Source: a virus. From it: a stretch of 29,134 bases of DNA. The translations under genes and the position numbers were made by a program. This document shows positions 1-17,685 of this stretch, in pieces (position 1 is the first letter of the stretch; each line of letters opens with the position of its first letter). The stretch spans positions 1-29,134 of IMG/VR virus record IMGVR_UViG_3300025872_000228, one strand, 5' to 3'. Below the pieces are notes generated by a model that searched no databases, was not told the DNA's origin, and saw only the letters and a list, made by a program, of their open reading frames with translations.

Positions 1-198
1 CGAGTCGATACCATGGGCTCGTTGAATCTCTTTTTCCTGAGAGTCGAGACCACGACCAAACAGCACCTGGTCACGGCGAGCGTGATGCAGTTTGCGTAGG
101 GCGTCATGGGCCAACGCAAGCCACTGCCCGTCAAGCTCACCGAGGTAATCCACGCACCGCGCACGGAGCGCCTGTTCCGAATCAAAATAGTCAAGCAT
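1..198 (-). CDS. Unknown partial protein, translationally coupled to int
   Basis: An open frame of 66 codons starts with MLDYFDSEQALRARC and runs off the left edge, so the C-terminus is missing. Its ATG shares a base with the integrase stop codon (TGATG), a usual sign of translational coupling on the same leftward mRNA. The visible part is helical and rich in charged residues, Leu and Ala, with no signal peptide or membrane segment. I recognise no family. Sitting directly behind int, it could be an excisionase or other recombination accessory factor, but nothing in the residues shows that. It is too short and internal-start-free to be an obvious shadow, and the overlap supports it being real. 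Confidence 0.6.
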   Translation of the reverse strand, partial: MLDYFDSEQALRARCVDYLGELDGQWLALAHDALRKLHHARRDQVLFGRGLDSQEKEIQRAHGIDS

Positions 199-1859
199 CA
201 CACTACCTGCTTCCACGGATGAGGTTCCCCCGACCGCTGGATGCGGCCGGCAAGTTCGATGGAGAGGGTGCGGGCGCGCACCGCTTCGCCTCGGGCTTTG
301 GCCACGAGGATCCGGTCGACATCTCGCGCCCACGGGTGCTCCGGACCAAAATCCGCCACGACGGCAATCAATGCGTCAAACAAGCGTTCGGCGGTCTCGG
401 CAGACTGGCACTCGATGGCCGTCAGGTAGGCCCCGGCGAGAGATTTCGCCGTTCCCGCGAGGGAAGTTTGCGGGTAAGAACTAACGAGCGGCGCCCCGTT
501 TATTTCCGAGCTTTCCGGGTTTGCGCAGCGGTTTCCTAAACCGTTGGTCGGAAGTTCGACTCTTCCCGGGGGCGCTGATTTTCCTGCTGTCCCGCCGACC
601 GTTTTGGCCAGTGCGGGAAACCCGTGGGAAAATCCGGTGCCTTCGGAGACCGACGACGCCATGACGGTGCTCTTTTGCTCGCCCATGACAATCCGCGTTT
701 CGGCCGCCGCTTCACGGACGGCTTCCTGCTGGCCGTGGACATAGCGGGCCGTCGTCGAGGCACTGGCGTGGCCAAGGAAAAATTGCACCTCTTCAATGGT
801 CCACTTGCGTCCCCACCAGCCGAGCAAAAGGCTGGTTGCGCAGGTATGTCGCAGGTCATGGATCCGCATTTGCGGAGGGACCTTCGCCGATTGTTTGATT
901 TTTTTCCACTCCGGAAATCGGACGATGTGTATGGGGTTTCGCACCCCGCCGTTTTTGTTCGGGAATGCGAGACCGAGGGGATTGTCCCCGCGGCCACGAT
1001 GCAAACTCAAAGCAGCAAACGCTTGCCAGTTCTCAAACGCTTCGATAGCCATCGGGAGAAGTGGAACGCGGCGGGGTCGGCCGCCTTTCGTCGGCGGCCA
1101 CAAAAGTTCACCCTCTGCTGTTGTCTTCGGCGGGCCGCCGTAGCGAACCCAAATGTGAGGCTCCGGCCCGTCGAGGACGATGTCTTGCAGATGCAAGGAC
1201 ACGGCTTCACCGACCCGGATGCCCGTGAAAATCATGAAGGCAAACATGTACCTTTCAGGTTCGGTAACCGCCGAAAGGAAGTCTTCAATTTGAGCCGGTC
1301 GCAGAGCGATGCCGTGCTCCTTCGTCGTTTTCAACCGAGGCAGGGGCAGGTCGTTGGTCACGATCTCTGTCACCAGGTCCCGAGCCTTGGCCTCCCTCAA
1401 CGTCGACCGAAGCAAGTTGTAGGCGTTCAAAACCGTTTGCCTAGCGATGGTACGCGGCATGGTTCGATAGACCACGCCGTCCTTGGTCAGCAAGGAATGC
1501 ACCGCCTGTTTTTTGGTCAATCGGTCGAAATAGTCCAGCGCATCGGAGGCTTTGACCTTTGCCGGCTCCATGTCCGCTATCGGGTCCGGCAGCAAGTGCG
1601 CCCGAAGGATGGACATCCTCGACTTAGGCAGGTCCAGTCGCTCAAGCGTCGACGTTGCCAAGCGCCCAATCGTGATGCGAGCAGGATCGGAACGGCGCTC
1701 GACCTCCTCGCTGAGATCATCGGCAAACCGTTCGGCCTCCCATCGGGTTTCGAAGGTCTTAAACAGAACCTTCTTTATTTTTCCCGTGACCTTGTCCTTG
1801 TTGGCCAAACGCACGCGCCACTTGCCGCGTGTCTCGTCGACATAGACCCCCTTGCGCAT
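198..1859 (-). CDS. int: Tyrosine-recombinase integrase with attP embedded in its C-terminal coding part
   Basis: Site-specific recombinase expected to integrate the phage into a host tRNA-Arg(CCT) gene. The N-terminal 60 residues look like a phage arm-type DNA-binding domain (MRKGVYVDETRGKWRVRL). A SAM-like core-binding region follows at about 75-175. The catalytic set is complete: R215 in TGIRVGEAV, K258 in PTKGG, H334-x-x-R337 in HDLRHT, H364 in LGHAS and the nucleophile Y373 in ARYVHG. At 553 residues it is longer than the usual 350-450. The extra C-terminal 170 residues include 429-445, which are the reverse-strand translation of a tRNA 3' half (see the attP entry), followed by about 108 further residues of normal-looking coding sequence. 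The ATG lies 4 nt after the upstream gene's stop. Integration would exchange everything after about residue 445 for host-encoded residues. Confidence 0.95.
   Translation of the reverse strand: MRKGVYVDETRGKWRVRLANKDKVTGKIKKVLFKTFETRWEAERFADDLSEEVERRSDPARITIGRLATSTLERLDLPKSRMSILRAHLLPDPIADMEPAKVKASDALDYFDRLTKKQAVHSLLTKDGVVYRTMPRTIARQTVLNAYNLLRSTLREAKARDLVTEIVTNDLPLPRLKTTKEHGIALRPAQIEDFLSAVTEPERYMFAFMIFTGIRVGEAVSLHLQDIVLDGPEPHIWVRYGGPPKTTAEGELLWPPTKGGRPRRVPLLPMAIEAFENWQAFAALSLHRGRGDNPLGLAFPNKNGGVRNPIHIVRFPEWKKIKQSAKVPPQMRIHDLRHTCATSLLLGWWGRKWTIEEVQFFLGHASASTTARYVHGQQEAVREAAAETRIVMGEQKSTVMASSVSEGTGFSHGFPALAKTVGGTAGKSAPPGRVELPTNGLGNRCANPESSEINGAPLVSSYPQTSLAGTAKSLAGAYLTAIECQSAETAERLFDALIAVVADFGPEHPWARDVDRILVAKARGEAVRARTLSIELAGRIQRSGEPHPWKQVV
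526..574 (+). other. attP: attP core: 3' half of a tRNA-Arg(CCT) gene
   Basis: The plus strand carries an anticodon stem-loop at 528-544 (stem GCGGT/ACCGT, loop TTCCTAA, anticodon CCT at 535-537). A T-arm follows at 550-566 (GGAAG, loop TTCGACT, CTTCC), then the acceptor 3' strand CGGGGGC at 567-573. Upstream of 526 there is no D-arm and no matching 5' acceptor strand, so this is not a full tRNA gene. It is the tRNA part normally shared between attB and attP of tRNA-targeting integrases. It lies inside the integrase reading frame, codons 429-445. Phage coding sequence on both sides means attP rather than attL or attR. Confidence 0.85.
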
Positions 1860-17307: not shown

Positions 17308-17685
17308 TCACTCCAACGGGCACTTCGGATTTGGAAGCGATAGAGAGATGCTAAATCCAGGCTTACCGAACGCGCCTAAGATGGCATCAAGGTCGATGTC
17401 GAAGCCGGGCATCTTCACCTTTGGAAAACTCATCGACTCGTCGAAGGATGGAAAGTCGATGTCAAGTGACACAGAAAATCCAGGCTTGCCGAACACGCCT
17501 AAGATGGCATCAAGGTCGATGTCGAAGCCGGGCATCTTCACTTTTGGAAAACTCATCGACTCGTCGAAAGATGGAAAGTCGATGTCCAGCGATACAGAAA
17601 ATCCAGGCTTACCGAACGCGCCTAAGATGGCATCAAGGTCGATGTCGAAGCCGGACAACTTGATGGGAGCAAATCCGCAACTCAT
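17308..17685 (-). CDS. Tandem-repeat protein next to the baseplate spike
   Basis: A 125-residue protein built of about 2.4 copies of a 41-residue unit, GFDIDLDAILGAFGKPGF plus VSLDIDFPSFDESMSFPKVK. The copies are almost identical, with A/V and V/I changes. Ends are unique: MSCGFAPIKLS at the start and LPNPKCPLE at the end, so one Cys sits near each terminus. Alternating Asp and large hydrophobic residues with Pro turns suggest a beta-strand stack. The gene starts inside the spike gene's stop (ATGA), so it is translated with it. A spike-tip or spike-adaptor role is an inference from position. Short Phe/Pro-rich proteins with similar ends occur beside spikes in other phages, as far as I recall. 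Confidence 0.7.
   Translation of the reverse strand: MSCGFAPIKLSGFDIDLDAILGAFGKPGFSVSLDIDFPSFDESMSFPKVKMPGFDIDLDAILGVFGKPGFSVSLDIDFPSFDESMSFPKVKMPGFDIDLDAILGAFGKPGFSISLSLPNPKCPLE
17354..17654. repeat. 123-bp tandem repeat (2.4 copies) inside a coding gene
   Basis: Near-identical units start at 17357, 17480 and 17603, exactly 123 bp apart. The third breaks off at about 17654. Most differences between copies are single bases at third codon positions, so the array is recent and its protein sequence appears to be maintained. Confidence 0.9.

Follow-up and report, generated by a model that had tools for sequence, protein, structure and literature searches.

The window analysed here, a stretch of viral DNA of 29,134 nucleotides (positions 1 to 29,134 of IMG/VR record IMGVR_UViG_3300025872_000228), probably represents a temperate phage in its free state, in which integration would exchange the C-terminal tail of the phage's own integrase (Int), as the anatomy of prophage ends shows for relatives. 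The integrase gene and its immediate surroundings have the following features:

1 to 198, minus strand: beginning of the gene that follows, of 66 aa or more, extending past the window edge, with no family match
196 to 200, minus strand: TGATG, the int stop overlapping the ATG of the next gene (from the sequence)
198 to 1859, minus strand: gene for a 553-aa tyrosine integrase in its phage (attP) form (ORF, PF00589, Foldseek)
201 to 524, minus strand: tail, codons 446-553, with four predicted helices (codon score, AlphaFold2, weak profile match)
526 to 574, plus strand: attP core in antisense to int, a tRNA-Arg(CCT) 3' part lying at codons 429-445 (ARAGORN, comparison with genome G119)
576 to 674, minus strand: pre-core linker, codons 396-428, predicted to be disordered (AlphaFold2, residues 386-465 with pLDDT about 30)
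675 to 1859, minus strand: N-terminal and catalytic part, codons 1-395 (R215, K258, H334, R337, H364, Y373), the boundary at codon 395 being placed by hand where tail-less relatives end

Int has a match to Pfam PF00589 (E-value 2e-18), and Foldseek relates its catalytic part to Tn1549 Int, XerA and lambda Int. It possesses both the R-K-H-R-H-Y catalytic set and the fold of a tyrosine recombinase/integrase. Located 5' of int on the same strand (1863-2828, minus) are an ORF of 60-70 residues, an ORF of 153 aa and, by eye, a Cro/CI-like helix-turn-helix protein, which are possible candidates for excisionase and regulator genes.

The first-pass annotation placed a tRNA-Arg(CCT) 3' half in frame at codons 429-445 of this 553-codon integrase, with the catalytic residues R215 to Y373 all before it. 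The ORF, ARAGORN and the comparison with G119 bear out the former, and the positions of all six residues in Int the latter. ARAGORN calls a tRNA-Arg(cct) at 502-575 (plus strand), of which the acceptor and D arms pair poorly and only the portion from the anticodon stem to the 3' end (528-574) is tRNA-like. By eye, this comprises an anticodon stem-loop (528-544), a T arm (550-566), an acceptor strand (567-573) and the discriminator base (574). The match to the intact Myxococcota tRNA-Arg(CCT) of G119 spans 525-575 with two mismatches, which together make up one compensatory T-stem pair, and it terminates at the beginning of the real D arm. As the match stops there, the window is read as the attP (free-phage) state and not as a prophage end. 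The possibility that the left end of the window is host DNA at a prophage boundary was rejected, the core having no adjoining tRNA 5' half. No convincing arm-type repeats were found around the core.

Location of an attP core in frame inside int and past the catalytic residues is the arrangement of Myxococcus phage Mx8, and the parallel drawn in the annotation is apt: in Mx8 (and Mx9) the int coding sequence includes attP, and Int is not inactivated when its gene acquires another 3' end on integration, the prophage form of Mx8 being reported as active with altered behaviour (PMC6070905). In the Mx8 record, too, about 105 residues come after a core-like stretch. However, as had been said, both the target tRNA and the protein are different: Mx8 uses another tRNA, its Int is remotely similar to that of the window (24% over 191 aa), its tail has no detectable relation to the tails of Myxococcota elements, and no close sequence relation to Mx8 was found for the window Int and tail. 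The authors of Islander have also described the Mx8 and SSV integrases as extending across attP (PMC4383910). The bacterial examples in the literature searched were Mx8 and Mx9, and a wider bacterial family of such integrases was not described there, which leaves papers outside that literature that may have done so.

The int gene and the core tRNA lie on opposite strands, so that a prophage int would continue into the antisense of the tRNA 5' half and, past this, into host DNA upstream of the tRNA. The annotation's proposal that integration changes the Int C-terminus therefore stands, attP being inside int; its further proposal, that the replacement is the sequence following the tRNA, does not, the tRNA being antisense to int. 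If the host tRNA resembles that of G119, the prophage Int is predicted to be about 449 aa in length, ending in ...NGLGNRCSIH before the stop.

An attachment site within the integrase gene is also a feature of the "suicidal" archaeal integrases of SSV type, in which the gene is broken by integration into Int(N) and Int(C), the latter holding the catalytic domain (PMC8371274). It is very improbable that integration likewise destroys the window Int and that excision requires another copy. While attP does lie within int, the split falls after all catalytic residues, in the disordered linker, so the whole catalytic part stays in a single gene; the catalytic domain is not separated in the window Int or its relatives, the catalytic part is open in most prophages examined, and the prophage form of Mx8 was reported as not inactivated (PMC6070905).

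Relatives were found in stages. A 55-aa catalytic query led to locus L016, which has a core of tRNA-Arg(CCT) type in the matching frame and a tail of about 100 aa. An alignment of the window and L016 then gave 13 loci (L034 is L016 again and some are near-duplicates), most of them with an in-frame antisense tRNA-like stretch followed by a tail of about 40-70 aa. In genome searches, the nearest integrases of this kind came from Myxococcota MAGs, and others were then located in many genomes of the phylum. An Int ORF running into a complete tRNA on the opposite strand was identified at at least 31 loci, a count made by hand that includes near-identical copies from related genomes (e.g., L127-L129) and a few frame-damaged Ints (L117, L138). 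The tRNA species overlapped are 12 in number: Arg (CCT, TCT, CCG, ACG, TCG), Thr(CGT), Gly(CCC), Lys(TTT), Cys(GCA), Asp(GTC), His(GTG) and Asn(GTT). Judged from sequence, the core-in-int arrangement is widespread among Myxococcota elements, which between them target many tRNAs.

Several of these relatives lie at tRNA-Arg(CCT), the tRNA gene at which the annotation had advised a search for prophages. The closest relative to the window (L123, in G119; 32% Int identity) is a prophage at this tRNA, and its Int ends in ...APPARVELATNGLGNRCSIH before the stop. In the relatives' genomes the prophage int has a different 3' end past the core. With L124, L136 and an integrase of G333 (contig C106), Int stops before the tRNA and has no tail. 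The window core with up to two mismatches was found in 3 of 379 Myxococcota genomes; no exact copy was found in the genome collection, a scan that may omit the window's own close kin, and a core scan of the genome contigs found no prophage of the window phage. From its Int family, a myxobacterial host is inferred for the phage, which would behave like its relatives in the anatomy of its ends. Scans of viral contigs with the whole Int and with the core gave no match, a generic phage integrase alignment offered no usable conserved stretch, and phage and plasmid collections contained remote integrases only. With control integrases from other phyla, a second core copy was absent from the flanks retrieved. 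Three of the loci (L029, L030, and L031) have the motif RLSDLNRRPVLYES in common, L030 and L031 with a tail and L029 entering a tRNA 5' half at its contig end, so both states seem to be represented in this group. Another locus (L130, G244:C11) has an 889-codon frame which by eye joins an integrase to a look-alike of an Rpn/PD-(D/E)XK-type nuclease.

Both prophage ends were found on a single contig in seven genomes:

G373, tRNA-Arg TCT, 34.5 kb between ends
G470, tRNA-Arg CCG, 33.8 kb between ends
G346, tRNA-Arg CCT, 42.7 kb between ends
G360, tRNA-Arg CCG, 15.8 kb between ends
G380, tRNA-Thr CGT, two core copies, 8.5 and 9.6 kb
G016, tRNA-Thr CGT, 5.3 kb between ends
G333 (contig C112), tRNA-Asn, exact 43-bp core copy about 38 kb away

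End-to-end identity in the pairs covers 44-46 bp inward from the tRNA 3' end, with flanking bases also shared in some. Excluding G333, the codons added to Int past the core number 4, 4, 4, 5, 6 or 26 at attL, and at attR the int frame is open for 46, 46, 46, 90, 96, 96 or 122 codons. The attR tails are orphans, in frame behind the second core copy; a tail-bearing Int of these pairs is a computed joining of the two ends, no such gene or protein having been observed. At attR in G346, G360 and also G373, the open length of the int frame is roughly equalled or exceeded by that of another frame, so the argument does not rest on openness alone. The codon-position G+C of the long attR tails is gene-like. 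The elements of 5-10 kb at tRNA-Thr(CGT) (G380:C149, G016:C8; L174, L175, L159-L161, L212-L213) have a distinct cysteine-rich tail of 46 aa (RCTQCFQ...RCPKCRKCPTEQ), and in G380 the core with its tail occurs twice at a spacing of about 1.1 kb, as might be expected of two elements in tandem.

Five of the long tails are related to one another (G360, L176, G373, G346, and L016), the best pair with an E-value of 3e-11 in a tiny database. Tail boundaries and groups were set by hand, and the members of the five-tail profile were chosen by eye for likeness, then checked on genomes and by leave-one-out. In the 379 Myxococcota genomes the profile recovered three of its own members and six new tails (E < 2e-4), each directly behind a tRNA-derived core. 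A G294 protein matching the profile (E 5e-5) was read as a chance match, as by eye it is a protein kinase. In five of the six new tails the core matches the attL region of an Int from the same genome, exactly in G333 (43 bp) and G075 (46 bp) and less exactly in G216, G254 and G348; the Int ORF of G075 passes through the core in a frame other than that of the tail, apparently through an upstream frameshift, and in G254 the shared stretch is mostly beside the tRNA. G115 is an exception: its core reads as a tRNA-Phe-like 3' half in sense orientation, and a search for an Int there gave none. Leave-one-out scores for the resulting 11 tails are 39-83 bits.

Tail dN/dS (Nei-Gojobori) was 0.41/2.38 (L023/L027), 0.82/1.05 (L025/L026), 0.14/0.45 and 0.09/0.41 (G380/G016), and 0.18/0.22 (two G380 copies). 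These ratios, from short alignments, are below 1 in all five comparisons and near 0.8 in two, and the constraint is weaker than in the Int part. Tails are retained at attR in relatives and one subfamily is conserved, in support of the annotation's reading. The tails of the tRNA-Thr elements and most tails of viral contigs have no detectable relation to this main subfamily, and "the tail" is therefore more than one domain.

The tail of the window was described in the annotation as about 108 normal-looking codons, and its codon usage agrees with this. Over 201-524 the codon score is positive in the int frame only among six frames, a score reached by none of 20,000 simulated sequences (first-order Markov, same composition). 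As 12% of these simulated sequences are free of stops, the openness of the tail alone is a weak argument. By eye, ATG, GTG and TTG are absent near the beginning of the tail, and its translation is thus presumably continuous with that of the rest of Int; that the tail is a gene of its own, beginning at the core, was ruled out on the same ground.

In an AlphaFold2 model of the window Int (12-sequence alignment), residues 386-465 are disordered while residues 467-542 are compact, with four predicted helices (467-483, 487-502, 509-522, and 526-542) and block pLDDT mostly 83-92. The model of L016 has four tail helices in matching order, at low confidence. Helix order is also alike between the window tail and the long-tail subfamily, and the endings are similar (SIELAGRI and AIELAxxI). 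Its match to the 11-tail profile is weak (4.4 bits, with 20 of 1000 shuffles scoring as well), and its score against the earlier five-tail profile was reached by 19 of 200 shuffles. It is plausible on these likenesses that the window tail is homologous to the long-tail subfamily (G360/G346/G333 group). As sole query against phage records the window tail found no related tail, and the tail alignment had no confirmed match in viral contigs.

A fortuitous fusion, in which functional Int extends no further than about residue 395-445 and the frame merely runs into a neighbouring gene irrelevant to recombination, could account for the tail-less L124 and L136, for a tail stop that overlaps the next start as in an ordinary operon gene and for the variation of tails between elements; in addition, the open lengths past the core were measured within this Int group only. 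It is unlikely, however, given that the int frame is open for 46-122 codons past the attR core in the two-ended contigs, that cores derived from different tRNAs are accompanied by tails of a single subfamily and that the window tail has no usual start codon of its own.

We favour instead a tail belonging to Int and exchanged on integration. The free phage would produce the 553-aa Int, consisting of a catalytic domain, a flexible linker partly encoded by the core, and a helical tail domain. On recombination, the tRNA-Arg(CCT) gene of the host would be restored and int left reading into its antisense strand, and the prophage would thus encode a tail-less Int, with the tail sequence stranded at the far end and devoid of a start codon. 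As the lysogen holds the tail-less gene only, the tail-less Int must suffice for excision if the prophage excises with its own enzyme, and selection to keep the tail would then act in the free phage. The role of the tail there could be in integration, in the control of integration or in the level of Int; it would work in the free phage only, where it would most probably promote integration (attP x attB) or serve to control it. With a tail-less form sufficient for excision, Int would have a built-in directional bias. Such a bias is our favoured role for the tail, with its chances about evenly balanced against those of other free-phage roles; selection in the free phage fits directionality control and is no proof of it.

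Among the other roles, the tail could alter the lifetime or amount of Int and not its chemistry. Some tails of viral contigs do end in short non-polar residues (KGAA, KGVA, RRLA, MGVVA), but the long-tail subfamily has no common C-terminal motif and its conserved part is internal and helical, making a stability switch improbable. A related case is the integration-dependent immunity of some mycobacteriophages, where attP lies in the repressor gene and the repressor loses a C-terminal degradation tag on integration. There too a regulatory protein has its C-terminus altered by the recombination event itself; however, that protein is the repressor and not Int, and what it loses is a degradation tag.

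The directionality of tyrosine integrases is usually ascribed to separate excisionase proteins and to the asymmetry of att sites. In the exchange proposed here, the DNA rearrangement itself would edit the enzyme by loss of a folded domain. Tentatively, and with somewhat less confidence than we give to the tail exchange in the window, elements of a broad group in the Myxococcota might set the direction of recombination through a C-terminal Int domain that can be detached: the Int of the free form would carry it and that of the prophage never would, its coding sequence being kept at the opposite end of the prophage until restored by excision. This wider mechanism is made testable by the recurrence of the anatomy at twelve tRNA species, the conserved tail subfamily and the orphan tails at attR. 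What is new is the breadth across Myxococcota, the conserved tail domain and the orphan tails, the principle being already published for Mx8/Mx9. It should be mentioned that integrase annotations derived from prophages of this group are without the domain carried by the phage form.

Elsewhere in the window, a tandem repeat of 123 bases with copies 94-97% identical is present at 17353-17661, within the region of tail genes. Two metagenome contigs (L002 and L003) match the window at 99.9-100% identity over 9.7 and 7.3 kb respectively, with L003 reaching 2.4 kb past its right end.
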